Positions 13,338 to 54,887 of a DNA stretch of 64,000 nt are shown in pieces. The stretch lies in assembly GCA_018061005.1 (NCBI GenBank), contig JAGOVA010000001.1, forward strand, positions 91,847 through 155,846. The letters run 5' to 3'. This DNA comes from Sterolibacterium sp. Lineage in GTDB: Bacteria > Pseudomonadota > Gammaproteobacteria > Burkholderiales > Rhodocyclaceae. The position numbers and the translations under genes are program-made. Each line of letters begins with the position of its first letter. Position 1 is the first letter of the stretch. The notes below the pieces were generated by a model, which searched no databases, had not been told where the DNA came from, and saw only the letters and a list, made by a program, of their open reading frames with translations.

Positions 13338-14587
13338 AAAATACATCCCCCTCCCCCATCTCCCCCCCTTCTTCTTCAAGTGCTGCGCCCGTGCAGCATT
13401 TCTTCGCACCTTGCCCGCGCGGTCTTGAAGCGCTGCTGGCCGACGATGCGCGCGCGGCCGGTGCGCTCGACAGCACCGTCAAAATCATCCCCGGGGGCGT
13501 GCAGTTTGCCGGCGACTGGCGTTGCGGTTACACGCTCAATCTTGAATCGCGTATCGCCAGCCGCGTGCTGTGGCGCGTGGCGACCGGCAGCTATCTGAAG
13601 GAAGACGACATCTACCGTCTGGCCATGACGGTCGACTGGCCTGCCCTGTTTAATGTCGAGCGTACCCTGCGGGTGTATGTCACGGCCATCAAGTCGCCGC
13701 TGAAAAGCCTGGAGTTCATCACCCTGCGCGTCAAGGATGCCGTCTGCGACCGTTTTCGCAGCGCCTGCGGCCAGCGGCCCAGCGTGAATACCGCGCAGCC
13801 GGATGTGCGGATACACATGTTTCTCACGACTGATCGTGTCACGCTCTATGTTGATACTTCGGGTGAGCCGCTCTGGCAGCGCGGCCACAAGATCGCCAAG
13901 GTGGAAGCCCCGGTGAAGGAAAACCTCGCGGCGGGCATCCTGCGCCTGATTGGCTGGCAGCCGGGTATTCCGCTGCATGACCCGATGTGTGGCAGCGGTA
14001 CCTTTTTGCTCGAAGCCGCGCAGATGAGCCTGAACGATGCTCCCGGACTGTCGCGCGAGCCGGGTGAATTTGGTTTTGAAAAACTGAAGAATTTCGATGC
14101 CGCCCTGTGGCGCGAATTGAAGCAGGCTGCCGCCGCTCGCCGCGACATGGCGCCGACCCGGCTGGATATTTCGGGAGCTGACATCACCCGCGATGCCGTG
14201 GCGCGCGCCCGCCAGAACCTCGATTACGCGGGCATCGGCACGCTGGTGGGGGTGCAGCAGGGCGATATTCTGCAGCTCGAACCGCCCGCCAAACCGGGCA
14301 TCCTGATTGCCAATCCGCCGTATGGCGAACGCCTCGGCGAAATTGAATCACTGGCCGCGTTCTACCCGCAGATGGGCGACGCGCTGAAGAAGAAATATGC
14401 GGGATGGAACTGCTGGTTTCTTTCTGCTGACCCGGCACTGCCCAAGTGCATCGGTTTGTCGGTCAAGCGCAAGATTCCGCTCTTCAACGGTCCGCTGGAA
14501 TGTCGTTTACTTCATTACCCGATGGTTGCGGGAGGAAATCGTACTCCGCGTACTCCGCGTACTCCGCGCTCCGCAGCCACCGATTAA
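13334..14587 (+). CDS. THUMP-domain class I SAM-dependent RNA methyltransferase (RlmL N-domain-like)
   Basis: Predicted N2-guanine methyltransferase for 23S rRNA. An N-terminal THUMP domain starts at HFFAPCPRGLEALLADDA. The Rossmann domain has HDPMCGSGTFLLEA (SAM binding) and the catalytic motif IANPPYGERLGE. Two starts are possible: TTG at 13334, overlapping the hemJ stop, or GTG at 13391 just before the THUMP domain. No ATG fits. The C-terminus ends in a low-complexity RTPRTPRTPR tail made by a 9-bp direct repeat at about 14542-14570. It resembles the N-terminal half of E. coli RlmL without the RlmK half. It converges on hemY with only 3 nt between stops. Confidence 0.87.
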   Translation: MKNTSPSPISPPSSSSAAPVQHFFAPCPRGLEALLADDARAAGALDSTVKIIPGGVQFAGDWRCGYTLNLESRIASRVLWRVATGSYLKEDDIYRLAMTVDWPALFNVERTLRVYVTAIKSPLKSLEFITLRVKDAVCDRFRSACGQRPSVNTAQPDVRIHMFLTTDRVTLYVDTSGEPLWQRGHKIAKVEAPVKENLAAGILRLIGWQPGIPLHDPMCGSGTFLLEAAQMSLNDAPGLSREPGEFGFEKLKNFDAALWRELKQAAAARRDMAPTRLDISGADITRDAVARARQNLDYAGIGTLVGVQQGDILQLEPPAKPGILIANPPYGERLGEIESLAAFYPQMGDALKKKYAGWNCWFLSADPALPKCIGLSVKRKIPLFNGPLECRLLHYPMVAGGNRTPRTPRTPRSAATD

Positions 14588-14590
14588 TTA

Positions 14591-15760
14591 TTAAACCACC
14601 CCTGCCGCCGCCCGGTAATGGCGGTTGGCATCCTCCGGGCGTTCCAGCTGATCGAACAGCCGCGCCAGCTCGACATGGGCGGCGTGGCTGGGTTGCTGTG
14701 ACAGGGAGGCTTCAAAGTAGCTTTGCGCCTTGCCCCAGAGTTGCTGCTGCTGGCACAAACGTCCCAGCACCAGCAGCAGGTGGGCATCGCGCGGGTGCTG
14801 TTTGAGCCAGTTTTCGCAACGCGCCAGCCGCCCGAGCACATCGCCCCCGCGACATTCGCCATAAAGCGTGGCGAGGCTGGAGTCCCAGTCATCATCGAGC
14901 AGATCTTCGAGCAGACGCTGGGCATTGAAGCTGTCATCGGCGGCAATCAGCAGCCTTGCGGCTTCTGCGGCCAGGCGTACATTGCAACGATCCGCACCGG
15001 GCAGGTCACGCCAGTAATGGTGTAGCGCACCGGCGTCGAGTGCCAGCGCGCGCAGTACTTCGAGATGCGCGCGCAGACGGATCGGTGCGGCCTGTTCGCG
15101 ACTCAGGGCGCGATGGCGGTCGAGCTGGCGCACGATCCGCACTACGTCCCGCCAGTTGCCCAGCGACTGATGGGCACGCAGCGACAGGCGCAGGGCGGCG
15201 ATATGCCGCTGGCCGCTGGCTTCCAGTACATCCACCACGCCCTGTGCGTCGGCATAACGATGGTTGTTGAGATGCAGTTCGGCTTCGGTCATCAACCGTG
15301 CATCGCGGCTTTCGGCATCATGTGCGGTGGCGCGCTGCAGCCATTCGCTTTGGCGTTCGTCGTCACGCATGGCGTGGGCGGCGCGCGCGGCCAGGAGGGC
15401 GGCCGTGCCTGGGGCATGGCTGGCCTGATGTGCCAGCGCGGCACTCTTCAGGGCGTGGCTGTAACGACCTTCAAAGCTCAGCCGCACCGCATCCCCCAGT
15501 GCCTCTTCAGCCTTTTCGCGTTGCCGCCGGGCGCGATATTCGCGGACGCGCTGCGGCAGCTGCAAGGTATGCGTAACCAGGCGGATGAACAGGTAGAGCA
15601 CGGCAAAGCCGATCAGTTGCAGCAGGATCAGCAGGTTCAGTGACAGCTCGACACGCCAGGGGGTGAGCACGAGCAGCACATAGCCATCGTTGTAACGCGC
15701 TGCCAGCGCGAGGCCGACTGCCAGCGCGGCCAGGGTCAGCAGCCAGAGCAGGGTACGCAT
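14591..15760 (-). CDS. hemY: HemY-type TPR membrane protein of the haem operon
   Basis: 389 residues. Two N-terminal membrane segments (LLWLLTLAALAVGLALAA and LNLLILLQLIGFAVLYLFI) are followed by a basic stretch and a long tetratricopeptide-type helical region. This is the proteobacterial HemY of the hemCDXY operon. It is distinct from the oxidase called HemY in Gram-positives. Its exact job is unsettled; a scaffold for haem-pathway enzymes at the inner membrane is usually proposed. It is last in the operon and follows hemX by 5 nt. Confidence 0.92.
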   Translation of the reverse strand: MRTLLWLLTLAALAVGLALAARYNDGYVLLVLTPWRVELSLNLLILLQLIGFAVLYLFIRLVTHTLQLPQRVREYRARRQREKAEEALGDAVRLSFEGRYSHALKSAALAHQASHAPGTAALLAARAAHAMRDDERQSEWLQRATAHDAESRDARLMTEAELHLNNHRYADAQGVVDVLEASGQRHIAALRLSLRAHQSLGNWRDVVRIVRQLDRHRALSREQAAPIRLRAHLEVLRALALDAGALHHYWRDLPGADRCNVRLAAEAARLLIAADDSFNAQRLLEDLLDDDWDSSLATLYGECRGGDVLGRLARCENWLKQHPRDAHLLLVLGRLCQQQQLWGKAQSYFEASLSQQPSHAAHVELARLFDQLERPEDANRHYRAAAGVV

Positions 15761-41582: not shown

Positions 41583-41716
41583 CCGGGGCGGGGGGGGATG
41601 CGGCAAAGTCGTTCAGGCTTTTACGCTTGGTTTGCTGGAAAACACTGGTTACTCCTGACTAAACCGATCAATTGGCGAAAATTACCCATGTCAGCTATAT
41701 TTCGCATGAAACGTCA

Positions 41717-42355
41717 ATGAGGATTCATTCAGTGGAACTGGCAACCGCCTCTCTCGCAAGTCCATCACTACCGACAAGGCCTAGTGCCTTGGATCAGGTA
41801 GTGAGGATGCTGCATGCCGGTAAGGTGTATCGCAGAGAGGACTTAGCGCAGGTTTCCAACGCCGTTGATCGGCATCTTCGCGAACTGGTTTCTGGCGGTA
41901 CGTTGAAGCGACTGGCGCAGGGGCTTTACTACGTGCCCAAGAAATCGGTGTTTGGCGTATTGCCCCCCGACGATCAGGAGTTGGTTGCCACCTTCCTGCG
42001 CGACAAGGATTTTTTGGTGTTCTCGCCGTCAAGCTACAACACCTTGGGCTTGGGAACATCGCAGCTCTATAACAAGACCCTTGTGTACAACCACAAGCGG
42101 CACGGCCTCTTTTCGTTCGGGAACCGCCAGTTCGATTTTCGCGTCAAACCGCGCTTCCCGAAGAAGATCACGCCGGAATTCTTGCTGGTCGATGCAATCA
42201 ACAATCTGGACGAATTGGCGGAAGACAAGCACCAGGTGCTTCAGATGGTGGAGCGCAAGCTGTCCGATTTCGATCAAGCCAAGTTGACGCGGGCCGTTTC
42301 AGATTACGGCTCTGTCGCCACCAAGAAACGTTTCATGCGGTGGCTGAATGCCTGA
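41717..42355 (+). CDS. AbiEi-type antitoxin (DUF6088 family)
   Basis: 212 residues from ATG 41717; an upstream TTG at 41672 would add 15. The N-terminal winged helix (DQVVRMLHAGKVYRREDLAQ ... RELVSGGTLKRLAQGLYYVPKK) is typical of AbiEi/DUF6088 antitoxins that repress their own promoter. The rest (FLVFSPSSYNTLGLGTSQLY and FDFRVKPRFPKKITPEF) matches the C-terminal antitoxin domain. It overlaps the toxin gene by 8 nt. Such pairs act as type IV toxin-antitoxin and phage-abortive systems. Confidence 0.85.
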   Translation: MRIHSVELATASLASPSLPTRPSALDQVVRMLHAGKVYRREDLAQVSNAVDRHLRELVSGGTLKRLAQGLYYVPKKSVFGVLPPDDQELVATFLRDKDFLVFSPSSYNTLGLGTSQLYNKTLVYNHKRHGLFSFGNRQFDFRVKPRFPKKITPEFLLVDAINNLDELAEDKHQVLQMVERKLSDFDQAKLTRAVSDYGSVATKKRFMRWLNA

Positions 42356-43292
42356 TTTCCTGCACACGCGCAGCGACTTCAACGAACTTCTGGCTATCGT
42401 GGCCGATCAGCGCGGGATTGATCCGGTGTTGGTCGAAAAGGACTACTGGATCATGCATTGCCTGTGGGGCTTGCAGGCATCCAAGTTCCGGTTTGAGCTG
42501 AAAGGTGGGACATCGCTCTCGAAAGGCTTTGGCATCATCCACCGGTTTTCGGAAGACATTGATATCCGCATCGAGCCGCCCGATGATCTGGAGGTCAAAG
42601 TCGGACGTAACCACGACAAGCCTGCGCACATCGAATCCCGGCGGACCTATTACGAATGGCTCACCAAGACCATCGCCATTCCTGGCATCGAGGCGGTCGA
42701 GCGCGACACTGCCTTTGATAACGAAAAAATGCGCAGCGCCGGAATTCGCTTGCGCTACCCCAACCGAGTCGGCCAGCAGACTGGCGTCAAGGACGGCATC
42801 TTGCTGGAACTGGGGTTCGACGACACGACCCCCAACCGTCCCGTCACGATCTCGTCCTGGGCCTACGATGTAGCGGTTAATGCCGGGGTGCAGATTCACG
42901 ACAATCGCGCAGTTGATGTTCTGTGCTACTTGCCCATTTACACCTTTGTCGAGAAGTTGCAGACGGTATCGACCAAGTACCGGCTACAGAAGGCGGGGGA
43001 GGCATTCCCAGCCAACTTCATGCGCCACTATTCCGACATCTACTGCCTGCTGACCTTGCCCGAGGTTCAGGAATTCATCGGCACGCCGGCCTACGAGGCG
43101 CGCAAGGTGCAGCGATTTCGGAGTGGGGATGAGCTGGTTGCGGCCAAGAACCCAGCTTTTCTGCTGGAAGACCCCGAAGACCGGGCGCGCTTTGCCAGCG
43201 AGTATCGCAAGACATCGGCCTTGTACTACAACGGCCAACCAGACTTGGATGAAATTCTGGCTCGCATCCGGCAGCACATCGACAAGATGTAG
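42348..43292 (+). CDS. AbiEii nucleotidyltransferase toxin
   Basis: 314 residues. The nucleotidyltransferase core has ELKGGTSLSKGFGIIHRFSEDIDIRIEPP; the GGTSLSK and DIDIRI segments supply the Gly-Ser and Asp-x-Asp catalytic residues. The later EFIGTPAYEARKVQRFRSGDELVAA segment is typical of AbiEii/AbiGii. In known systems the toxin transfers nucleotides to tRNA acceptor ends and blocks translation. Overlap with the antitoxin gene shows one operon. A hairpin about 30 nt downstream probably ends the transcript. Confidence 0.9.
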   Translation: MPDFLHTRSDFNELLAIVADQRGIDPVLVEKDYWIMHCLWGLQASKFRFELKGGTSLSKGFGIIHRFSEDIDIRIEPPDDLEVKVGRNHDKPAHIESRRTYYEWLTKTIAIPGIEAVERDTAFDNEKMRSAGIRLRYPNRVGQQTGVKDGILLELGFDDTTPNRPVTISSWAYDVAVNAGVQIHDNRAVDVLCYLPIYTFVEKLQTVSTKYRLQKAGEAFPANFMRHYSDIYCLLTLPEVQEFIGTPAYEARKVQRFRSGDELVAAKNPAFLLEDPEDRARFASEYRKTSALYYNGQPDLDEILARIRQHIDKM

Positions 43293-43438: not shown

Positions 43439-43923
43439 CTACGTCGGTATGGGTCGATCCCCGCGTGCGGGGGGGGGGGGACGCACCCGAGCGTAGCCGT
43501 CGTGCATCAGGGCCACAAGGCCCTCGCGGCTGGACAGACCGCCACGGTGAATCTGCGGTGCATACCGATCATCCAACTCGCGCAGAGCCTGATCGATTCG
43601 CAAGACCAGTTGCACGGCGTCGCCTTTGCGGCCACGCCCCGAGTGCCCGATGTGCAGGCAGAAAATTCGAGTGTGGTGCCAAGTATTCCCGATGGGCAGG
43701 TACACGCCCCGTCCAATGGCGCAGGAAAGGTAAGCGATGAAATTGGCCGCGATGGCATAGGGATTGGTTTCCGTGCCCTCGCCGCCAGCACAGGCCACCT
43801 CGCCAACCAAGCCGTAAAGGCAAGACCGGTGGGGGTGCGGCGCATTTCGATGGATGCCAGCTCCTGAGTTCGCAAAAGGCGAAACCTCATCGAGGGAGGA
43901 GCCGAGCGGAGGACCTGATACAT
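43439..43923 (-). pseudogene. DUF3987-like replication ATPase, frameshifted and truncated
   Basis: One minus-strand frame reads RSCLYGLVGEVACAGGEG, then AIAANFIAYLSCAIGRGVYL, LHIGHSGRGRKGDAV and GGLSSREGLVALMHDGY. This is the P-loop-like core of DUF3987/RepA-type ATPases of mobile elements. The expected preceding part (RLLRTQELASIEMRRTP) is in a different frame, so a frameshift lies near 43830. The gene stops at a long G run (about 43469-43480) and lacks everything after the GRKG region. It is a decayed relic of an earlier element in the same orientation as the partition and recombinase module. Confidence 0.7.
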
Positions 43924-43954: not shown

Positions 43955-44836
43955 CTACTTGTCCAGAGCCGTGGCCTGGACGATCCCCGAAAACTCGCGC
44001 AGGATGTCGGGGTTGTTCTGCGACAGAAACCGGATCACGGCTTCGTTGTCCAGCAGTTTCGTCAGATAGCCCCTGGCCAGCACCAGGTTGAGGACGTCCT
44101 GCCCGTACGACTGCTCGACCAGCTTGAACTGACTTTCCAGGTTTGCCATTTCGCGCTCCATCTTCGCCATTTGATCGGCGGTGACACCTTTGACTTTCTT
44201 TGGGCCTCCCTCGTTGACCAGCATGTTTGGGGGCGTGGTCGCCAGCAAGGCCTGAGCGTAGGACACCGTGATGTTGTTTGTGGCCACCATCAGTTCGACG
44301 CACTCGACCTGGCGCGTCGGTTTGAGCTTGCGCAGGACCGGACTCAGGTTGGCCGAAAAGTGCTTGTCCCTGAGCAGTCGAACAGCCTCCGCGCAGATCC
44401 CGTCCAGCAGGTTGATCTTCTTGGTGATGTGCTCCAGGTCCAGTTCCAATGATTTCGCCAACCGAGCCGGTGTGACGCCACGGTCCACCGCCCGCCGAAT
44501 CATGAAATGCTCCTGGATGGTCGACAACCGGTTGATACGGTTGTTGTAGGTGTAGCTCTCGTCGTCCTTGGCGATCAGGCATGGAGCATCAGTGAAGCCC
44601 AATTCCTGCAAGGCAAACATTCGGATGTGCCCGTCCAGCAGCAGGTGCATACCACTGGTCCTGTCTGCTTTGGCGATCGTCAGGGGTTCGATCAGGCCAA
44701 CGGCATCGATAGAGGAAATGATCTGCTTGAACTTGCGCGAACTCATGAGCCCGTCAGGGGCTTTGCGAGAGGGCAACAGTTTTTCGAAGGCCACTGTAAT
44801 GGGTTCAGGGATGAATCCCAGGTTGCTTTGCGTCAT
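43955..44836 (-). CDS. ParB-like protein with RepB-type partition C-terminus
   Basis: 293 residues. The N-terminal ParB nuclease-fold segment (ITVAFEKLLPSRKAPDG, then HLLLDGHIRMFALQELGFTDAPCLI) is followed by a helix-turn-helix region (RRAVDRGVTPARLAKSLELDLEHITKKINLLDGICAEA). The rest matches the plasmid RepB-type C-terminal domain, with a long helix QMAKMEREMANLESQFKLVEQSYG. It overlaps the preceding ParB by 4 nt and is the last gene of a recombinase-led operon. There is no parA Walker ATPase nearby, so classic plasmid partition is unlikely. Confidence 0.85.
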   Translation of the reverse strand: MTQSNLGFIPEPITVAFEKLLPSRKAPDGLMSSRKFKQIISSIDAVGLIEPLTIAKADRTSGMHLLLDGHIRMFALQELGFTDAPCLIAKDDESYTYNNRINRLSTIQEHFMIRRAVDRGVTPARLAKSLELDLEHITKKINLLDGICAEAVRLLRDKHFSANLSPVLRKLKPTRQVECVELMVATNNITVSYAQALLATTPPNMLVNEGGPKKVKGVTADQMAKMEREMANLESQFKLVEQSYGQDVLNLVLARGYLTKLLDNEAVIRFLSQNNPDILREFSGIVQATALDK

Positions 44837-45735
44837 GAGGCGTTTCCTGCGGGCCAGACGCGTTCAGCAATGTATTTCGGCAGACTATCCAGCCCCTCGG
44901 CGCGCAGCAGGTTGGTGAAGTTCTCATCGGCCATGAGTTGGCGCATGGCTTCAGCCACGAAGAGCAGTCGCTGCTGGGCGAATTCCGCTTTCTTGACCAT
45001 GAGCTTTTGCCGTTCGACCTCGTGCTGGTACGTCCTGATCAGGCTGGAGGATGTCACGTCCGGGACCTTGCGCGGCGCCCCCCTTGCGATGGACCGCCCC
45101 AGCGATCGGCGTTTTTCGATGACCTTGCGCGCCTGGATCAGGTGGTTACCGCGCAATTGGCCGTTTTCGTAGGCTTCTTGAAGAGCTGACTGGATGTCCT
45201 TGTCGTTGCTACCAGCCCCTGCGATGGCCAGGGCGGCGTTGAGCGGGATGCGGCCACTTTCAACCGCAATCAGTAGCCGCTCCTCGCCGTTTTTGAGTAA
45301 CTGCAAGATGCCATGAACGTAGTCCTGGCCCAGTCCCGTCTTCTGGGCGATGGCCTTTTTGTCGTAGCCCTGATCGCGCATCTGTTCGATGCCTGCCAGC
45401 AACTCCAGGGTTCGCCCCTGGCGACGGGCGATGTTTTCAGCCAGGCTCATGATGAAACCGTCTTCGTCGCTGACATCGACGACCATGGCCGGGATGGTGG
45501 TCTCGCCCAGGGACTTGAAGGCCTTGAGCCGACCTTCACCGCAGATCAGCAAGAATTTCTCCCGGCCATCGCCGTCCTTGCGCGGCGTGACCGTGATCGG
45601 CTTCTTCAAGCCAATGTTCTTGATGTTTCCGACGATGTCATCGAAGATTCGGCCATTTCGGTCGCGCGGATTGAGGACTTCGATCTTGTCGATCGGAATC
45701 ATCTGGAGATTGCTGGACGGATGTTCTTTGCTCAT
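44833..45735 (-). CDS. ParB/RepB/Spo0J family protein
   Basis: 300 residues. ParB-type N-terminus: NLQMIPIDKIEVLNPRDRN, KPITVTPRKDG, KFLLICGEGRLKAFKSLGETTIPAMVVD (the GEGR box replaces the usual GERR) and SLAENIARRQGRTLEL. An HTH follows (MRDQGYDKKAIAQKTGLGQDYVHGILQLLK). ParB proteins bind CTP and spread from a DNA site; that activity is inferred here. Overlaps of 4 nt on both sides tie it to the recombinase upstream and the RepB-type ParB downstream. Again no ParA partner is present. Confidence 0.9.
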   Translation of the reverse strand: MSKEHPSSNLQMIPIDKIEVLNPRDRNGRIFDDIVGNIKNIGLKKPITVTPRKDGDGREKFLLICGEGRLKAFKSLGETTIPAMVVDVSDEDGFIMSLAENIARRQGRTLELLAGIEQMRDQGYDKKAIAQKTGLGQDYVHGILQLLKNGEERLLIAVESGRIPLNAALAIAGAGSNDKDIQSALQEAYENGQLRGNHLIQARKVIEKRRSLGRSIARGAPRKVPDVTSSSLIRTYQHEVERQKLMVKKAEFAQQRLLFVAEAMRQLMADENFTNLLRAEGLDSLPKYIAERVWPAGNAS

Positions 45736-47297
45736 GCGGCCCTCCTGACGCGTGTACGTTCTGCCATGCCGTGGAGATAGTCCAGGCTGTCAAAGCGGTA
45801 GCTCTCGAACTCGATGCCGTTGTGTTCGGCCAGGCTGATGCGTGGCAGGCCGAAGTCCAGGCGCGGGAGCAAGTAGTAATCCAGTGGAGCTTGGTTCGGT
45901 TGGTCCAGGCGCACGGCCACCGTGATGTCAGGTGCCAGACTGGTGTCGAAGCGAACCTTCCAGCGCAGACGCCCGCTGTCGTGGGTTTGGCACCGGGCCA
46001 AAACGACCGAAATGCTGAACTCCCGGTTCACCGTCAGCAGGTCGGTGGCCGGGTCTCGCACGACCGTGCCACCGAGTTGCGCGATGGCCCGTTCGGTCTG
46101 GCCGATGATTTCCGGGTGCAGCTTGCGCAGGAACTTGTTGACCTCCAGGAACTGGTAGTCCCGATCGGGGGTGAAGCCCACCGCCTCATAGGCCCGGATC
46201 AGGCTGCCGAAGCGGTGGATGTAAGCGGCGGCCGACGGCATCCCTTCGGCCTCATCGATGATCAGACCCGACAAAAAGCCACGATGCTGGTACAGGTTGC
46301 GCAGTTTTTCGATCAACTCCTCGCTGCTGAACCGGTGCGCCCGGGCCCGGATGATGCCTTGAGCCATGTAGAACACCTCCGGCGGCACGATCGCCTCGAA
46401 GGCGCCTTCCTTCTTGATCCACATGTCCGGCTGGTTCGTGATCCGGTGTTTTTTGAGCTTGAAGGAGATCCGGTTGTAGACGTTGTTGCCGATGTACTTT
46501 TCGTTGGTCAGCACCTCGCGGACAGTGGCCCGGGTCCAATCCCGATCCAAGTCGGTACGAATTCCCTGGCCATTGAGTCGGGCCGCGATTTCCGACTCCG
46601 GTATGCCACCATCGATGAACCACTTGTAGATCTGGTTGACCGTCTGTACCTCGGAGTCGGGGCCTGGCATCAGGATCACCCGATCCGTTTGCAGGCTTTT
46701 GTGCTCTCCACGAGTCAACTCACTTTTGACGGAGCCACTCTGGTCGATCAGGACGCGGCGCAGGCCGTAACCGGCCGGGCCACCTTGCCGGTACCCCAAT
46801 TCGATCAGGCGGCACTGCCCGGCAAACACCTTGGCGGACAGTTCCCGGCTGTACTCGCCCGCCATGGCACGTTTGACACCTTTGACGATGGTGGAAACCG
46901 GTGAGCCGTCGTTTTCAAACTGTTCGGCCACGTAGGTGACGTGGATGCCAGCGCGGCGACAGATGTACTCGTAATAGGCGCTTTCGTCAGCGTCCTGGAA
47001 CCGACCCCAGCGGCTGACGTCGTATACCAGCACCATCTGGAAGTCGGTGGTACCGGACTCCACGTCTTTGATCAATTGCTGCAGCGCCAGCCGCCCGCCA
47101 ATGTTCAGGCCGCTTTTGCCTTCGTCGGCATAGGTCCGCACGATCTTGATGCCGCGTTGCGCAGCGTACTCGCGGATCTTGTCGGCCTGGTTTTCGGTCG
47201 AGTACTGTTGGTGCTCGGTCGACATCCGGACGTATTCGGCGGCTCGGAACAAGGCAGGTTGGTCTGGCCTTCCACTTTCTGATTCTTCTGATTGCAT
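45732..47297 (-). CDS. Large serine recombinase, module 1
   Basis: 521 residues. The N-terminal resolvase domain has the catalytic Ser26 in AAEYVRMSTEHQQYS, FQMVLVYDVSRWGRFQD and AMAGEYSRELSAKVFAG. A recombinase domain follows with SEIAARLNGQGIRTD and REVLTNEKYIGNNVYNR. The 200-residue C-terminus is unlike common phage integrases and has no Cys4 zinc ribbon (YRFDSLDYLHGMAERTRVRRAA at the end). It starts an operon with two ParB-like proteins. It could integrate or excise the module, or use ParB proteins to choose sites. A 9-bp inverted repeat lies just upstream of its ATG (47389-47446). Confidence 0.9.
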   Translation of the reverse strand: MQSEESESGRPDQPALFRAAEYVRMSTEHQQYSTENQADKIREYAAQRGIKIVRTYADEGKSGLNIGGRLALQQLIKDVESGTTDFQMVLVYDVSRWGRFQDADESAYYEYICRRAGIHVTYVAEQFENDGSPVSTIVKGVKRAMAGEYSRELSAKVFAGQCRLIELGYRQGGPAGYGLRRVLIDQSGSVKSELTRGEHKSLQTDRVILMPGPDSEVQTVNQIYKWFIDGGIPESEIAARLNGQGIRTDLDRDWTRATVREVLTNEKYIGNNVYNRISFKLKKHRITNQPDMWIKKEGAFEAIVPPEVFYMAQGIIRARAHRFSSEELIEKLRNLYQHRGFLSGLIIDEAEGMPSAAAYIHRFGSLIRAYEAVGFTPDRDYQFLEVNKFLRKLHPEIIGQTERAIAQLGGTVVRDPATDLLTVNREFSISVVLARCQTHDSGRLRWKVRFDTSLAPDITVAVRLDQPNQAPLDYYLLPRLDFGLPRISLAEHNGIEFESYRFDSLDYLHGMAERTRVRRAA

Positions 47298-47388
47298 AGG
47301 GACCGATCACACAATTTTTGATTGGTGCTCTCGGGCCCTGCGTTTCACTTCATCTGTAGCTGCGGCGCCGGTGGTTGACAGCGTCGAG

Positions 47389-47446
47389 TTACCGTTGAGG
47401 CGGTTGCCATGCAGGTGTTCGAGAGCTCATTTGGGAGCAACGGTAA
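47389..47446. repeat. 9-bp inverted repeat between the Cys-rich gene and the recombinase
   Basis: TTACCGTTG (47389-47397) and CAACGGTAA (47438-47446) are perfect inverted copies separated by 40 bp. They sit in the 171-nt spacer between the stop of the Cys-rich gene and the recombinase start. A recombinase or ParB binding site, or a small att site, is possible. The remainder of the spacer holds nothing recognisable. Confidence 0.4.
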
Positions 47447-47468
47447 TGCCCGGCATGGGAGATGACCA

Positions 47469-47876
47469 TCACGTCCTCTCTTTGCACGCGTCCTTTTTGC
47501 ATGGACATTCCGTGCACGCCGGGGTGATTTCTGCAATCCACGCGTCACTCTTTGCAGATGTGTCCTGCCGGAACTTGAGCCAGTACAGACCGGAAAGTGG
47601 GGTGCCGGTGGTCACCATGGCCGTCGACACCGGCGGTGTACTGGCCTTGTCCGCCTGGCTCCTGTATGTTCGCCAGTAATCGGGATTACGGTCCAGCCAC
47701 GCGCGCTGGCTGCGTGACTGGTTGTCGCGATAGTCGGGATCGGATCGCATTTTGTCGCGTTGCCAGCGCAGACGTCGTTCGCGTTGGCAGGCCGGTGCTG
47801 AACAGAAGGCCTGATCGCGGACCTGGGGACGGGTTGTGAATGGTTGGCCGCAGCAGGCACAGATCTTGGTGGACAT
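47469..47876 (-). CDS. Cys-rich putative zinc-binding protein of the recombinase module
   Basis: 135 residues from ATG 47876, with GGAG 7 nt upstream. The N-terminal part has MSTKICACCGQPFTTRP and QAFCSAPACQRER, giving a Cys4 zinc-binding pattern. A basic, aromatic-rich stretch follows (RLRWQRDKMRSDPDYRDNQ ... AWLDRNPDYWRTYR), and a second Cys cluster (CTECPCKKDACKERT) closes the protein. Similar Cys-Arg-rich proteins with the RNPDYW-type segment occur beside recombinase genes; I know no assigned function. It probably binds nucleic acid. The gene lies 171 nt upstream of the recombinase on the same strand. Confidence 0.75.
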   Translation of the reverse strand: MSTKICACCGQPFTTRPQVRDQAFCSAPACQRERRLRWQRDKMRSDPDYRDNQSRSQRAWLDRNPDYWRTYRSQADKASTPPVSTAMVTTGTPLSGLYWLKFRQDTSAKSDAWIAEITPACTECPCKKDACKERT

Positions 47877-47885
47877 CGAGTTTCT

Positions 47886-47905
47886 CCATACGAAAATTTG
47901 TATGG
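47886..47905 (-). promoter_or_regulatory. Palindrome adjoining the Shine-Dalgarno of the Cys-rich gene
   Basis: CCATAC and GTATGG are the arms of a 20-bp near-palindrome whose centre is AAATTT-rich. On minus, the GGAG ribosome site overlaps the last G residues of the 3' arm, 7-9 nt before the ATG. It could be an operator, or an RNA hairpin that limits ribosome access. A role is inferred from position only. Confidence 0.45.
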
Positions 47906-48094
47906 AACTCGGTGGCCAACTATGGTGGCCTGTTGCCCTGTGCAACGATGTTGGCAACTCGGTATGGCTGCAAACCAATCAAACACCCATTCACACCCAT
48001 TTCGCCTCCTTGTCTTCACAAGTAAGACGAATCGTCACAACGAGGTGATGACACGACGGTGCGCTCCGCAATGGCTGCGCTTACCGCGTCGATG

Positions 48095-48769
48095 TCAGCC
48101 ACGAAGTGTTGTCAGCAACTTCACCAATTCGACAATGGCAGTGAATGGTTCGGGATCTGTGTGCGCCGTGAAACGCGCTGACAACCGTTCTGCACGCAGG
48201 GTGGCGACCGATAAATGCGCGCCGGTGATCGCGAACGCGTTGCCAGCACCTTTGTCGTACCCTGGAATGTGCAGCTTGAGGCGGCGCATCACTTCATCAC
48301 GATGCAGCGGAGCCTGAATATCCTCAAAATGCAGCAACAGCCACAACTCAAAACTGGGCACGGAAGCAATGGCCTGAAAGGCTACCGGCTGCTTGGCATC
48401 GTTCCTGAGCTTGCCATCGAGCGAGGCAGCCAGCGTCAGCGCCTCGTGATAGCTGTCATGGTCATCGCGGTCAAACACGGCATAGACCTTCTCGAACGCG
48501 CGACGCTGAATGTTCTTGTGGCGGTCGCCATCTTCAAACAATGCTTGGGCGTACTGCACCACCTGGATAGGTGCAGTGCCCAATTCGCTGGGTCGAACTT
48601 CCACATTGGCAGTGTGCAAGCGAAAGGCCGCACGGATCTCACGAAAGTAATTCGGCTCGGTCTTGCTGCCTTCAGAAACGATCAAGATGCGGTCGTAGCT
48701 CGCCCGCCGTCCCTGCTTGCGCTCAAGCTGTTTCTGTTGTCGCTCTTTGGGGGAGTTGTCGCGAGCCAT
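48095..48769 (-). CDS. RloB-like effector protein
   Basis: 224 residues from ATG 48769. The N-terminus is very basic (MARDNSPKERQQKQLERKQGRR). The core has ILIVSEGSKTEPNYFREI, VYAVFDRDDHDSY and ASVPSFELWLLLHFED, which are the hallmarks of RloB proteins with a TOPRIM-like acidic core. RloB occurs with the ATPase RloA in restriction and abortive-infection islands, and the pair is taken to be a defence nuclease system. It overlaps the RloA stop by one nt. The 218-nt spacer beyond its 3' side leads to the Cys-rich gene. Boundaries are clear; molecular activity is not. Confidence 0.88.
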   Translation of the reverse strand: MARDNSPKERQQKQLERKQGRRASYDRILIVSEGSKTEPNYFREIRAAFRLHTANVEVRPSELGTAPIQVVQYAQALFEDGDRHKNIQRRAFEKVYAVFDRDDHDSYHEALTLAASLDGKLRNDAKQPVAFQAIASVPSFELWLLLHFEDIQAPLHRDEVMRRLKLHIPGYDKGAGNAFAITGAHLSVATLRAERLSARFTAHTDPEPFTAIVELVKLLTTLRG

Positions 48770-50037
48770 CAGTGTTTCAGCCCCAGGGTGTGGCTGAGGA
48801 ATGGCACGCCGCCATACCGTCCCATCAGGTAGCCGCGTTCCAGTGCCTCGTTCTTGCGCGGGCTGAATTCGGATAAGCTGACTAACGCCGAGGTCTGATC
48901 GCGGTCTTTTTCTACGAACCACACTTGATCTCGTCGGAACAAATCTGGTGCGTCCAGCAGCGACGTGTCGTGCGTCGTGAATATCAGTTGTGCGCCGCCG
49001 GTGTTGATCTCTGGGCGGTGGAACAGTCGCACGAGTTCGCGCACCAGCAAGGTGTGCAAGCTGGTGTCGAGCTCGTCGATGACCAGCGTTAGCCCTTTGC
49101 GGAGGATGTCGAGCACTGGTCCTGCAAGAAACAGCAAATTGCGCGTGCCGTTGGATTCGTCCATCAATTCAAACACGGCTTTGCCCTGTTCGGTGACGTG
49201 ATGGAAGCGCAGCTTGTGTTCTTCCATTTCTTCCGACCGTACTTCAGTTTTACCGGCCACCAAGTCAAAGTGAACGGCCTGCCCAGGGACTTTGCGTGTT
49301 TCCACATCAATGTCGGCGATGCTGATGTCGGCGGCAGAGAGGAAGTTGCAAATTTCCTTGCGGCCGTCATCCTGCTTGAGCATCTGAATGGACACCTGCG
49401 GACTGAGCTGGGCTTGCTCGTTAAAGATGACCAGTCGATTCACGAACCAGTCGAACACCGGGCGCAAGGCTTCGCTATTGAGTTGCACGGCCATCGACAG
49501 GAAGAGGGCGTTCGGTCGGGTGGCACCTTCCCACAGGTTCTTGGGTCCTTTCAGGCCGGGACCGAAGTCGTAGACATCCTTGCCGGTCTCAGTGTCAAAG
49601 CGGCGTGTGAACCAACGCTGGGGCTTGAACGCCTTGTAAACCAGCAGGTGCTCACTGACGATCCGCTGAGCTGTCATGGAAAAGCCATACTGGTAGCGCA
49701 CACCATCGAGCAGGAACGTGACTTCGAACTCGCTGGGTTGACTGGCGGAATCGACATCGAGTCGGAAGGGCTGAACTGCGAAGGTCTGGCCCGGCTGGAT
49801 CGCCGTCGCGGACTCGGTCACCACGCCGCGCATGTACTGCAGGGCTTTGATGAGATTTGACTTGCCGCTCGCGTTGGCACCATAGACCACAGCACTGCGC
49901 ACCAAGGTGGGTGCGGCACTGATGCCGGTCGCTTGGGTGTGGGTGTCCTGCAGGGTCTTGTCCTTGGATGCAACAAGACTAAGCACCTGCTCGTCGCGCA
50001 GACTGCGGAAGTTCTTGACGCGGAACTCGACCAGCAT
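48769..50037 (-). CDS. RloA-like AAA15/SMC-type ATPase
   Basis: 422 residues from ATG 50037; ATG 50046 is three codons earlier and also possible. FRVKNFRSLRDEQVLSLVAS begins an ABC/SMC-like ATPase. Walker A is VVYGANASGKSNLI (about residues 47-58). Walker B is GLTLVIDELDTSLH, followed by QLIFTTHDTSLLD with the switch His. The ABC signature-like segment lies before Walker B (NGTRNLLFLAGPVLD). It matches RloA and related AAA15 proteins that partner with RloB. Overlap with RloB shows one operon. Upstream are AT-rich DNA and an att-like repeat. Confidence 0.9.
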   Translation of the reverse strand: MLVEFRVKNFRSLRDEQVLSLVASKDKTLQDTHTQATGISAAPTLVRSAVVYGANASGKSNLIKALQYMRGVVTESATAIQPGQTFAVQPFRLDVDSASQPSEFEVTFLLDGVRYQYGFSMTAQRIVSEHLLVYKAFKPQRWFTRRFDTETGKDVYDFGPGLKGPKNLWEGATRPNALFLSMAVQLNSEALRPVFDWFVNRLVIFNEQAQLSPQVSIQMLKQDDGRKEICNFLSAADISIADIDVETRKVPGQAVHFDLVAGKTEVRSEEMEEHKLRFHHVTEQGKAVFELMDESNGTRNLLFLAGPVLDILRKGLTLVIDELDTSLHTLLVRELVRLFHRPEINTGGAQLIFTTHDTSLLDAPDLFRRDQVWFVEKDRDQTSALVSLSEFSPRKNEALERGYLMGRYGGVPFLSHTLGLKH

Positions 50038-50046
50038 TGCATTCAC

Positions 50047-50372
50047 CTCGTTTTTCTAAAATAAAGTCTAATTATGACTCAGAAGTGCAAAAAATACAGA
50101 TATTTTTAACATTGGAGTGATTTGAGTGAGTTGGGTTGGTATCGCAGGCCGAGGCAGTCCTGCCGGGTGTCAAGTCCCCGGTTGAACTTCGCTGGAGCTT
50201 CGACGTGGCATCCAGCGGCGGTTTGGCCAAATCGTCGAATCCGCGCCCAAAAGACCCGTGCGTTACTATCTGGTTCTGAAAGCGGACGCGGGTTCGGTTC
50301 CGTGTTCCACCCTCAAGGGACAAATGGCCGAAACGGTGGACTTTCGGCCAAAAGCAGGGACAACTGTTCAGG
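50047..50372. other. Spacer between RloA and the HTH gene
   Basis: About 326 nt without a gene. It contains AT-rich DNA next to rloA that probably holds its promoter. It also holds one of two 29-bp att-like repeats (50283-50311), one copy of the AAATGGCC-type motif (50322-50334) and a hairpin TGGCCGAAA/TTTCGGCCA (about 50324-50352). Confidence 0.7.
50283..50311 (+). repeat. 29-bp att-like direct repeat, left copy
   Basis: Starts CGGACGCGGGTTCGGTTCC and ends TTCCACC. It is identical over 29 bp to 52266-52294. It resembles the 3' end of a tRNA or tmRNA gene (T-arm GGGTTCG-like segment and CCACC end), but no full RNA gene precedes it. Weaker similarity extends about 60 bp to the left in both copies (GGCCAAAT ... 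CCAAAA ... ACTAT). It probably marks an integration event. Confidence 0.6.
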
Positions 50373-51268: not shown

Positions 51269-51763
51269 TCAAGCCTTGACGGTGTTCAAGCGCAGCATCA
51301 GCGTCATCGGATGCTGCGGTGACTCCTGGAAGCCGTAGTGCTCGTAGAACTGCTTGGCGCGGTCGTGGAGAGCGTGGATGAGCAGCGCCCGGACACCGGC
51401 GTTCTGCGAAACGCTCACCGCTCGACCGACTGCGTCCTGCAGCAGGGATGCTCCAAGCTTGATGCCTTGCGCCCGATGGTCGACGGCCAGCCGGGCCAGA
51501 ACCATCACGGGCACTGGATCGGGCATGTTGCGTCGCACGCTGCTGGTTGCCGCCTGATGTGAAACCGCGCCTGCGGCCATCGCGTAGTAGCCGTAGACAC
51601 GCCCTTCCTGATCCGTGACGACGAAGGTGCGGCTGGCACCGCTCAATTGGTTGGTCAGTGCCCGGCGCTTGAGCCATTCATCGAGACTGGCTTCACCGCA
51701 AGCGAAATCGTCCAGGATGTGGGTGGCGGCGAGCGGAATCGGTGCGCTTAAGTGCAAGCTCAT
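51269..51763 (-). CDS. GNAT acetyltransferase toxin (TacT type)
   Basis: 164 residues. ILDDFACGEASLDEWLKRRALTNQ, TFVVTDQEGRVYGYYAMAAGAV and VMVLARLAVDHRAQGIKLGASLLQDAV give the acetyl-CoA binding core. The C-terminal AKQFYEHYGFQ contains the catalytic Tyr. TacT toxins acetylate aminoacyl-tRNA and stop translation. The antitoxin gene overlaps its start by 4 nt, the standard order for DUF1778-GNAT pairs. Confidence 0.9.
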   Translation of the reverse strand: MSLHLSAPIPLAATHILDDFACGEASLDEWLKRRALTNQLSGASRTFVVTDQEGRVYGYYAMAAGAVSHQAATSSVRRNMPDPVPVMVLARLAVDHRAQGIKLGASLLQDAVGRAVSVSQNAGVRALLIHALHDRAKQFYEHYGFQESPQHPMTLMLRLNTVKA

Positions 51764-52032
51764 GCCGCGCCGGTGCTCCAGGGTGCCTTGACAGCCATGA
51801 GACGCTCAAGCCCGGGGTTGGGGCCGGGAGGTGCGTCAAGCATCGCGGTGAACTGCTTGAACTTGTCGGCGTCCAGGCTGAAAAAGACCTGATCGAGCAC
51901 CACGGACTGCGCGCGGTCGCAGGCCGCTTCGAGCATGAAGTCCGATCGGTTCTTTCCGAGCAGACTGGCGGCGTGATCGATCAGATCGCGCTGTTCGGGC
52001 AGTGCCCTCAAATTGATGGCGGCGTCACGCAT
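51760..52032 (-). CDS. DUF1778 antitoxin (TacA type)
   Basis: 90 residues. A ribbon-helix-helix N-terminus (AAINLRALPEQRDLIDHAASLLGKNRSDFMLEAACDRA) binds DNA and represses the operon. The C-terminal tail (FSLDADKFKQFTAMLDAPPGPNPGLERL) neutralises the toxin. It overlaps the GNAT gene by 4 nt. Upstream DNA holds TACACAA/GATACACGG repeats that may be its operator, not clearly resolvable. Confidence 0.9.
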   Translation of the reverse strand: MRDAAINLRALPEQRDLIDHAASLLGKNRSDFMLEAACDRAQSVVLDQVFFSLDADKFKQFTAMLDAPPGPNPGLERLMAVKAPWSTGAA

Positions 52033-52265
52033 TGGTTTCTCCTATTCGCGCATACACAACAGATACACGGATTGTGGCGCAGCGTGTAGCCGTTGTCAAT
52101 ACGCGTTGCGCCTCATGCCGCAGGTGCGGGTGCCGACTGGTAGCCAGTACAGCGCATCAAAACCTGCGCTCCGGGGCTGTTCAAGTTCGGACGAATGTCC
52201 ACGGAAACGGCCAAATGACCAAAATCCGGGACTGGAGACTTGCGGACGGACTATTATTCAGATGA

Positions 52266-52294
52266 CGGACGCGGGTTCGGTTCCGTGTTCCACC
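52266..52294 (+). repeat. 29-bp att-like direct repeat, right copy
   Basis: Same 29 bp as 50283-50311. Here the CCACC end is followed by ACCAAATTG and then a strong plus-strand terminator. That is how a tRNA or tmRNA 3' end would look, so this may be an attR scar carrying the host terminator. The 5' RNA body is missing. No complete acceptor stem can be built from the upstream DNA. Confidence 0.6.
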
Positions 52295-52303
52295 ACCAAA
52301 TTG

Positions 52304-52531: not shown

Positions 52532-52984
52532 TCAGGCATCAAACGCCGTCACCACCTCGCGCTGCGCCATCCAGTCGGTCGGTAGCGGATTGCGCTGAAA
52601 CCACAGCAGGCTCATGCACCGGGGCTGCTGTCCGGCAAGGATGCTCTGGATGATGGCGGGCTCCAGCAGCGTCAGGCGCAGCAGCTCATTGACCGTGGAA
52701 TGGTGCAGGTCTTCGCGCAGGGCGATCTCACTGCCGCTGCCAACCACGCCGTCGTCCAGCAGCTGCTGCCAGTAGAAGGCCCGTGTCAGGGCCACCAGCA
52801 AGGGCTGGTCAATCTGACTGGCAACCTTGCCCGGCGCATCGAGCTGGCCGTCCGGGCGTACCACTACCTTGCTGCCGCCACGCTTGCGAATCTTCAGCGG
52901 GATGAAAGTGGACAACTTCACCTGCCCGCCATCCCGGCGCTCGCGCGCAACAGGGCCACCCAAGGCCTGCACTTTCGGCTTCAT
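52532..52984 (-). CDS. Recombinase-associated small protein, unknown
   Basis: 150 residues from ATG 52984, whose ATGA overlaps the recombinase stop. The N-terminus is basic (MKPKVQALGGPVARERRDGGQVKLSTFIPLKIRKRGGSK). A helical region (QPLLVALTRAFYWQQLLDDGVVGSGSEIALREDLHHSTVNELLRLTLLEP) ends with AIIQSILAGQQP. The SEIALREDLHHSTVNELL segment looks like a DNA-binding helix pair. Its translational coupling to the recombinase suggests a directionality factor or accessory subunit. I know no assigned function. Confidence 0.75.
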   Translation of the reverse strand: MKPKVQALGGPVARERRDGGQVKLSTFIPLKIRKRGGSKVVVRPDGQLDAPGKVASQIDQPLLVALTRAFYWQQLLDDGVVGSGSEIALREDLHHSTVNELLRLTLLEPAIIQSILAGQQPRCMSLLWFQRNPLPTDWMAQREVVTAFDA

Positions 52985-54342
52985 GCCTCCACCTCCTGCT
53001 GTTCCCATTCCTGCAATTCCGCGCCGATGGTGCCGGGCATCAGCTCACCCGCCAGTTCCTGCCAACCCTGATCACGCCAGATGATTTCCAGCCCGCCGTC
53101 GGCAATCACCACGCGCTCGATCAGCAATTGCGCCAGTCGGCACTGCTCCGCTGGAAACAACTCCCGCCACAGGCTGGCAAGGTTGCGCATTGGCAGCACA
53201 ACCTGCGGTTCGGTGAGGTCTGGCCGAATGTGCTGCATCCGGTCCCATACCGACTGCACGATGTGTGGCGCGGACAGCGCGGCGACGATCTGCTGCGTGA
53301 CCAACTCTTCAATCGGCACGGCTGGCAACGGGCCGTGTTGACTGGCCCATGCGCCAAAGCGCCGGTGTTTGATCGGACTGTAATAGCGGTAGGTCTTGCC
53401 CTTCTTGACCGTGTAGCTGGGCACCAGCCGTTCGCCATCGGACGTGAACAGCAGGCCACGTAGCAGCACCGGTTCGCTCTGCCGATCATTGGTTTCGCGC
53501 CTGCGTTCGATGCCATCGGTGGCAATCAGCGCGTGCACCGCATCCCACTGTGCCTGGGTGATGATGGCTTGATGTTGGCCGGGGAAGCTCTGGCCCTTGT
53601 GGACGATCTCGCCCAGGTACATCCGGTTGTGCAGCATTTTGTAGATGGTCTGCTTGGTGAAGGGCTTGCCGCCCTTGGTGACCACACCTTCCGCGCCGTA
53701 GGCCTTGGCCATCAGGGTGGCCGAGCGCACGGTCACGAAGTCATCGAAGATGCGGCGAACCAGCTTGGCCTCAACTTCGTTGATCACCAACCGTCGGTTA
53801 TCGACGTCGTACCCGAGCGGCAGCGGCCCGCCCATCCACATCCCCTTGGCCTTGCTGGCGGCGATCTTGTCGCGGATGCGCTCGCCCGTCACCTCACGCT
53901 CAAACTGCGCGAAGGACAGCAGGACGTTGAGCATCAGGCGGCCCATCGAGGTGGCCGAGTTGATCTGCTGCGTGACAGCGCTGAAGCTGACCCGGTGGCG
54001 ATCAAACACATCGACCATCCGCGCGAAATCCGCCAGCGAGCGGGACAGCCTGTCGATCTTGTAGACCACCACGATGTCGACCTTACCCAGCTGGATATCC
54101 GCCATCAGGCGCTTCAAGGCAGGATGCTCCATGTTGCCGCCGGAGAAACCGCCATCGTCGTAGTCGTCGGCCACGGCAATCCAACCCTCGTGGCTCTGGC
54201 TCTTGATAAAGGCGTGCCCGGCTTCCTTCTGCGCGTCGATGGAATTGAAGGACTGATCCAGCCGTTCGTCACTGGAGACGCGGCAATACACCGCGCAGCG
54301 CCGCTTTTGCACGAGCTGCGGCACGAGCAAGGGCGTGTTCAT
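52981..54342 (-). CDS. Large serine recombinase, module 2
   Basis: 453 residues. The catalytic Ser23 is in RCAVYCRVSSDERLDQSFNS. The resolvase domain also has IVVVYKIDRLSRSLADFARM and FEREVTGERIRDKIAASKAKG. A recombinase domain with NKKL-like KQTIYKMLHNRMYLGEIVHKG follows, then a C-terminal LTEPQVVLPMRNLASLWRELFPAEQ segment. It is a phage-type large serine integrase but without an obvious Cys4 zinc ribbon. ATGA overlaps tie it to DUF2924 upstream and the 150-aa protein downstream, a three-gene cassette. Confidence 0.93.
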   Translation of the reverse strand: MNTPLLVPQLVQKRRCAVYCRVSSDERLDQSFNSIDAQKEAGHAFIKSQSHEGWIAVADDYDDGGFSGGNMEHPALKRLMADIQLGKVDIVVVYKIDRLSRSLADFARMVDVFDRHRVSFSAVTQQINSATSMGRLMLNVLLSFAQFEREVTGERIRDKIAASKAKGMWMGGPLPLGYDVDNRRLVINEVEAKLVRRIFDDFVTVRSATLMAKAYGAEGVVTKGGKPFTKQTIYKMLHNRMYLGEIVHKGQSFPGQHQAIITQAQWDAVHALIATDGIERRRETNDRQSEPVLLRGLLFTSDGERLVPSYTVKKGKTYRYYSPIKHRRFGAWASQHGPLPAVPIEELVTQQIVAALSAPHIVQSVWDRMQHIRPDLTEPQVVLPMRNLASLWRELFPAEQCRLAQLLIERVVIADGGLEIIWRDQGWQELAGELMPGTIGAELQEWEQQEVEA

Positions 54343-54800
54343 TGAACATCCCCCTTGCCATCGCGCAGGCCAAAGAACTTCGGCCCGTTCCAGCGCGTGC
54401 CGGTGATGTGGCGTGCTGCCGCCGACAGGCTTTTGAACACCTGTCCGTTTAGTTCATACAGGCCATCGGGCGTGACGGTCACGCGATGCTGGCGTTCATC
54501 CCATTCGCGGATCAGCGTGGTGCCGGGCATCAACAAGGTCTGCGCGCTGCGGCCGACACTGGTTTTGATCTTGGAGTGCTTGGCTCCGGCCTCAACCAGC
54601 ATATTGCGGATGTTGGTGGGCAGTGCGCCGTAGGCTTTCTCCTGAATGCGGTAGGCCAGACGCGATTCCACGTAATGGCGATTGCGATGACTGGGCCGCC
54701 TGGGAAAGTGTTGATCCCATAGCGCCCAGAGCTCGGCCATCGGCAGGGATGGCAGCACGGCCAGTTGGGCCGAGATGCTGCCGTTGGGGGTGTCCGTCAT
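54339..54800 (-). CDS. DUF2924 domain protein
   Basis: 153 residues from ATG 54800, with AGGAG 10 nt upstream. SISAQLAVLPSLPMAELWALWDQHFPRRP and VESRLAYRIQEKAYGALP match DUF2924. The C-terminus (GTTLIREWDERQHRVTV ... LYELNGQVFKSLSAAARHITG) is a small beta domain typical of the family. It is found widely beside serine recombinases of islands and is probably a DNA-binding partner. Its leader carries the CTTGGCTTC motif. Confidence 0.85.
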   Translation of the reverse strand: MTDTPNGSISAQLAVLPSLPMAELWALWDQHFPRRPSHRNRHYVESRLAYRIQEKAYGALPTNIRNMLVEAGAKHSKIKTSVGRSAQTLLMPGTTLIREWDERQHRVTVTPDGLYELNGQVFKSLSAAARHITGTRWNGPKFFGLRDGKGDVQ

Positions 54801-54887
54801 TTCGAATTTCTCCTGTGGTTGAGACAGGTCCATGAACGCGCTGTGGCAGGCAGAAGCCAAGTCAAACCGCGCTCTATCGGCTATTCA

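Follow-up and report, generated by a model that had tools for sequence, protein, structure and literature searches.

A large serine recombinase gene (rec) and the two ParB-family genes that follow it (parB1 and parB2) probably constitute an integration and excision module of site-specific integrative elements, in which the ParB proteins act as dedicated accessory factors of recombination. The trio lies in the window, the whole stretch of 64,000 nucleotides of Sterolibacterium sp. DNA that was analysed. Four minus-strand genes at 43955-47876 had been described there in an earlier note, and both their positions and their Pfam matches agree with that description (Table 1): rec and parB1 overlap by 4 nt, as do parB1 and parB2, and 171 nt separate the end of a gene for a small Cys-rich protein from the start of rec on the same strand. 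The note had counted one RepB-type ParB, which holds for ParB2, but ParB1 also has a RepB-type C-terminal domain. The proposed four-gene module is reduced to a conserved core of three, rec, parB1 and parB2, the Cys-rich gene not being universal.

Table 1. Features of the module and its surroundings in the window.
Feature	Position	Strand	Remarks
AbiEi/AbiEii pair	41672..43292	+	adjoins module, beyond gene remnant
Remnant of gene 3' of parB2 in relatives	43493..43854	-	by homology
ParB2	43955..44836	-	293 aa; RepB PF07506 5e-43; ParB_N 0.002, under cut-off
ParB1	44833..45735	-	300 aa; ParB_N PF02195 7e-10, RepB PF07506 1e-17
Large serine recombinase (rec)	45732..47297	-	521 aa; Resolvase PF00239 6e-24, Recombinase PF07508 2e-21
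Cys-rich small protein	47469..47876	-	135 aa ORF
Inverted repeat / RNA hairpin	47884..47907	-	TTCCATAC AAATTTTC GTATGGAG; over presumed ribosome-binding site of Cys-rich gene
AAA ATPase and RloB pair	48095..50046	-	matches AbiL defence models
tRNA/tmRNA T-arm-like repeat, first	50274..50316	.	86% direct repeat with second
GNAT and TacA-like antitoxin	51269..52032	-	between the T-arm-like repeats; 2-kb cassette-like unit
T-arm-like repeat, second	52257..52299	.	minus strand TGGTGGTGGAACACGG
Second serine recombinase with DUF2924	52981..54860	-

Conservation of the trio

Genome contigs yielded at least 592 pattern matches and at least 584 confirmed relatives; the 80 best-scoring of these, by their titles mostly Betaproteobacteria, were used. 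IMG/VR gave 114 confirmed relatives, and again the best 80 were used. The association counts describe these best-scoring relatives only, not distant ones, and the viral sets of the different searches have many contigs in common. Both ParB genes lie 3' of rec in 73 of the 75 genome loci with at least 1.9 kb downstream (5 of 80 were dropped for too little DNA) and in 63 of the 64 viral contigs with the same room (16 of 80 dropped), and the three remaining rec loci retain a broken parB1. Conversely, rec was found upstream of parB2 in 50 of 51 loci (27 of 78 dropped), the sole miss, L260, being a fragment, and upstream of parB1 in all 53 (10 of 63 dropped). A ParB2 match at E < 1e-50 is present in 17 of 300 genomes belonging to the order of the window genome, which is itself one of the 17; all three genes are matched at 15 of these loci, and the remaining 2 loci are cut.

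The spacing is kept as well. At 142 related loci where all three ORFs could be called, with start codons chosen by script, the gap is -4 between rec and parB1 in 101 and between parB1 and parB2 in 99. Distance matrices from 140 loci correlate with r of 0.93 for rec-parB1, 0.94 for rec-parB2 and 0.96 for parB1-parB2, and over the 78 loci with a Cys-rich gene the core pairs reach 0.80-0.88 and the pairs with the Cys-rich gene 0.63-0.72; the permutation test applied to these correlations ignores shared ancestry. Rec and the ParBs can be exchanged, as seen from two mosaics: locus L053, among 68 genome loci compared, is 77% identical to the window in rec and 86% and 88% in the ParBs, and a second copy of the module in the window's own genome (C83), located at the edge of a contig with its ParB2 cut after 75 residues, is 76% identical in rec and 87% in ParB1. 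The conserved order and tight overlaps that the earlier note had expected were thus recovered, with co-occurrence at 136 of the 139 rec loci with room downstream and a prevalence of -4 gaps, and the genes, which it had allowed might never occur together elsewhere, do so in the loci examined. The reading that unrelated mobile-DNA genes simply lie together here, by chance or passively, has the odd gene combination itself in its favour and nothing more; it is contradicted by the two-way association counts, as well as by order, overlap and correlated divergence, and we give it practically no weight.

Sixty plasmid records contain the recombinase over 80% of its length, and it was matched over at least 80% of its length in one of 50,697 records of isolated phages, so that the viral-contig matches may largely be prophage-like islands.

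The Cys-rich family forms an ORF cluster in 94 loci, in 93 of them upstream of rec on the same strand. It is usual in the betaproteobacterial relatives only, and other loci have a different small gene in its position (clusters of 25 and 17 loci). The ORF matches no family with confidence, a weak PHROG match pointing to an HNH endonuclease family (4e-4); the protein possibly binds zinc and could be a regulator or accessory protein.

Insertion sites and element boundaries

Site-specific integration, with junctions of the attL/attR type, is seen at the boundaries of four elements: a unit of Agrobacterium plasmids, loci L061 and L246, and an island of genome G238. These boundaries bear out the suggestion that the module belongs to a self-mobile element with target-site junctions. 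The unit of L061 measures 4,950 bp (4.95 kb) and sits at a tRNA-Val gene with a 46-bp repeat of 93% identity; besides the Cys-rich gene and the trio it has a 108-aa ORF, and none of its ORFs encodes another recombinase. In L246, 4.36 kb around rec, parB1 and parB2 lie between 23-bp repeats of 96% identity, and this copy is not at a tRNA. The gene content of such compact units is the reason to hold that it is the recombinase that integrates them, and the window recombinase is the presumed integrase of its element.

The Agrobacterium unit, 3.9 kb on pAt C58, consists of a small divergent gene, rec, parB1 and parB2. It recurs with 96.9% identity in pAt1D1460 between different flanking genes and so occupies two sites, and a 21-bp motif, CSCCTTGAANGGARTYGAACC, stands at both of its ends with 0-2 mismatches; in our own reading its reverse complement resembles a tRNA T-arm. 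Three Agrobacterium plasmids that are free of the unit have the motif about 30 bp after AbiEii (0, 3 and 1 mismatches, L179 being the one with 3), and one of them, L180, has a second copy behind VapC. These sites have only the left flank in common with the occupied ones, and a site with both flanks joined was not found among the plasmids compared. L181, in which Fic adjoins AbiEii, was rejected as an empty site, the motif being absent. As a side observation, the att-like motif flanks VapC and Fic genes with 1-3 mismatches in L180 (8956-9865) and L182 (893-2507), as if these genes were exchangeable cassettes; the presence of the motif next to AbiEii, Fic and VapC genes also raised the idea of an integron-like cassette array, which was dropped. 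For the unit of the megaplasmid p12939-PER (L009) no empty site was found among 40 of the 48 records listed.

In genome G238 the module is carried by a 67,431-bp island whose right end falls at the TGGTGG of a tRNA-Phe gene (its CCACCA end). The left terminus TGGTGGTGTAGTCC (island start TGGTGGTGTAGTCCCC) recurs in L028, L041 and L101 beside other flanks, so that the left end is backed by these three loci and the right end by the tRNA. Unoccupied sites with the two flanks joined are present in genomes G208, G300 and G304, the left flank in this comparison being shorter than 50 nt and largely a terminator-like hairpin. When up to 1 mismatch is allowed, 11 of 75 loci have the left-end motif in the 6 kb upstream of the Cys-rich gene, and 1 of 75 has it on the other strand. 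A sharp break after parB2 (GCGAACAGCGGCACC) had been a candidate for the right end of the element; it is internal to the 67-kb island and thus marks the boundary between module and cargo. Read by eye, the island further contains genes for phage structural proteins and, near its right end, a second serine recombinase with DUF2924 similar to the pair in the window. The island stands in tandem duplicate in the G238 assembly, possibly as an artefact.

Elsewhere, a homology break in L168-L176 falls at a tmRNA-like 3' end, and L032, which has a broken parB1, shows a tRNA-Met at a similar right end. A repeat in L095 was discarded as evidence for targeting of tRNA-Gly, a probable tyrosine integrase (by eye) adjoining that tRNA. 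Scans detected a complete tRNA in 5 of the 60 genome loci and 3 of the 45 further loci covered, and clear repeats in few loci, so that tRNA targeting is indicated for some copies and not for the family as a whole.

Contrary to the earlier delimitation, the four genes are not the limits of the window copy: its right side is truncated and its left end is uncertain. Of the 21 relatives whose alignment continues beyond parB2, 20 lose homology to the window at 43493-43497. This point falls within a gene that L017 (Curvibacter delicatus) has in intact form (13347-14723; 458 aa, no Pfam match), which places the truncation there. A run of about 12 G lies beside this point (43470-43481) and could be an assembly or slippage spot. 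On the left, sequence resemblance makes the second T-arm-like repeat a candidate left end of the element and the first a possible remnant of a left attachment site. Assignment of these repeats to the genome's own tmRNA was rejected, that tmRNA being permuted and on another contig, and an Rfam scan of 36-56 kb gave no match at gathering score.

The genes around the module include cargo of defence type, AbiE, Fic and AbiL-type in the window, and restriction and Wadjet-like genes (both named by eye) in relatives. AbiEi-like and Fic-like ORF clusters were noted by eye near the module in 18 and 17 loci. Genes for TniQ, TniB and a transposase were also seen a few kb downstream of parB2 in L007 (11403-14988) and L018 (14833-17700); they are annotated in L007 and were recognised by eye in three ORF clusters of 9-10 loci each.

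Possible roles of the two ParB proteins

The Resolvase catalytic domain (PF00239) is followed by PF07508 in all 58 aligned recombinases. An AlphaFold model (mean pLDDT 82, pTM 0.46) matches the integrases of SPbeta, Bxb1 and phiC31, although with a low overall TM, at most 0.36 of the query among the matches listed. The zinc ribbon PF13408 was matched at E 0.01 in none of the 58 and CxxC after residue 300 was present in none of 165; the neighbouring DUF2924-type recombinase of the window scores 18.4 bits against PF13408, under the cut-off of 25.3. PADLOC gave no match for the recombinase or the Cys-rich protein, and for the ParBs nothing beyond weak matches to type II methyltransferase and SspE.

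The profile of ParB1 matches Spo0J/Noc/ParB down to 1e-17, and the protein keeps the G-E/Q-G-R and E-N-x-x-R residues: G66, G68, R69, E100, N101 and R104, which we take to be the CTP-site residues of ParB, are invariant in 42 sequences. ParB2 is a diverged ParB/RepB paralogue. Its model matches ParB/Noc structures and D68, G69, R72 and N98 are invariant in 49 sequences, but an E-N pair is not recognisable by eye.

A ParA-type motif (KGGxGK[ST]-type Walker) was found in none of 169 related loci, in ORFs of at least 180 aa and flanks that reached 10 kb at most and were often shorter; as a control, the expression recovers 4 of the 5 PF13614 loci of the window's own genome. The absence of ParA that the earlier note had reported near the module extends to these loci, and the contrary outcome, a ParA next to the module in close relatives, did not occur in the loci examined. 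A partition system with a nearby ParA was dropped on these counts. The contig that includes the window does encode a chromosomal ParA, next to a ParB-like gene, at a distance of about 90 kb.

The near-constant linkage, the overlapping genes, the lack of a zinc ribbon and the absence of ParA lead us to infer that the ParBs have a part in recombination. Insertion of the element would be site-specific, with the 3' CCA end of a tRNA gene as the target in some cases, and the recombinase would presumably cut and join DNA by subunit rotation, as expected from its family. Most likely, ParB1 would bind CTP and DNA near the att site of the element and, with ParB2, load or hold the recombinase and control synapsis or the direction of recombination, so that the ParBs would replace the zinc-ribbon/coiled-coil domain and the separate directionality factor of ordinary large serine integrases. 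That the recombinase does the integrating, and every biochemical role given here to the ParBs, we infer from sequence. A more specific proposal, which we put forward tentatively and with more doubt than confidence, is a CTP-gated integrase: the zinc-ribbon/coiled-coil region would have been lost, and a ParB CTPase clamp, loaded from the element's own DNA, would together with its degenerate partner choose between integration and excision, tRNA ends included.

The module could also serve integration while the ParBs keep, segregate or compact the excised circle, perhaps with a borrowed ParA, and take no part in recombination. The homology of ParB and RepB domains to partition proteins and the presence of a ParA elsewhere in the genome, with no motif nearby, are consistent with such a role, and SGI1 reportedly hijacks the parABS of an IncC plasmid (PMC10954446). 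The ParB genes, however, overlap rec in most loci, and apart from one fragment neither was found away from it, whereas genes for partition should also occur independently of an integrase and next to a ParA. Two paralogues, one of them diverged, are moreover unusual for partition, and we consider a purely post-excision role unlikely.

Finally, the ParBs might be regulators of the KorB kind that repress or silence the operon and so time the production of the recombinase. KorB and Noc are among their structural and profile matches, and inverted motifs precede both the Cys-rich gene and rec in the relatives of the window, the latter an imperfect CCCGAGAGC...GCGATCGGG pair seen in the window clade by eye only. 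Of 81 loci, 48 have a stem comparable to the hairpin of Table 1 upstream of the Cys-rich gene, where 20 shuffles gave a mean of 10.0 and a maximum of 16. The arms vary between loci while complementarity is kept, as would be expected of RNA pairing more than of a fixed operator; the hairpin is possibly autoregulatory. A conserved parS-like DNA motif was not noticed either, in a casual rather than systematic look. We regard operon regulation by the ParBs as likewise unlikely, and retain accessory factors of recombination as the likely reading.

Relation to known systems

DNA segregation, nucleoid occlusion and plasmid repression are the main processes in which ParB CTPases are known to act. The linkage of a serine recombinase with two ParB-family genes suggests a control of DNA insertion that has not been studied, and as the pair is tied to a serine integrase, control of recombination by a CTP clamp becomes directly testable. 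With this family comes a serine integrase whose targets include a tRNA end; its small units (3.9-5 kb) may serve as tools, and its elements are linked to defence cargo and hence to the question of how defence islands are built. In agreement with the earlier note, which knew of no such system, we found no description of the trio in the PMC full texts searched.

SCC elements are cargo islands at a fixed site; the recombinase of the present family matches CcrB and CcrC models weakly and far under cut-off, and SCC/ccr presumably differs from it in recombinase pair, in target and in the lack of ParB partners. With ParABS, Noc and KorB the family shares the ParB fold and, in ParB1, the nucleotide-site residues, ParB2 matching ParB/Noc by its model; unlike in ParABS, no ParA motif accompanies the genes in 169 loci and they are linked to a recombinase. 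The phage large serine integrases of phiC31, Bxb1 and SPbeta have the same catalytic and recombinase domains and integrate site-specifically, but here no zinc ribbon or CxxC was found, two ParB-family genes follow, and a tRNA 3' end is among the targets. In the passages available, the Islander study states that serine integrases were not known at tRNA genes (PMC4383910), and the 16 tRNA/tmRNA sites described for M. abscessus belong to tyrosine integrases (PMC10654092); a serine recombinase of a Paracoccus phage at tRNA-Met, as the accessible part of that report has it (PMC6536676), makes such a case rare rather than unknown.

The ssrA islands of Dehalococcoides (McMurdie et al. 2011, PMC3146451), as far as the passages available describe them, have a module with DsiB and DsiA, a RecF-like protein, one ParB-domain protein of 210 residues and a Mom-like gene, from which the gene content here differs, and those passages describe no RepB-type ParB pair overlapping the recombinase. 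In the same passages these islands resemble the present elements in having a ParB-domain gene in the integration module and a CcrB-like serine recombinase that acts at the 3' end of tmRNA, with tandem islands likewise. An ssrA-like target is no more than suggested for the present family, by the two T-arm-like repeats in the window and the homology break of L168-L176.
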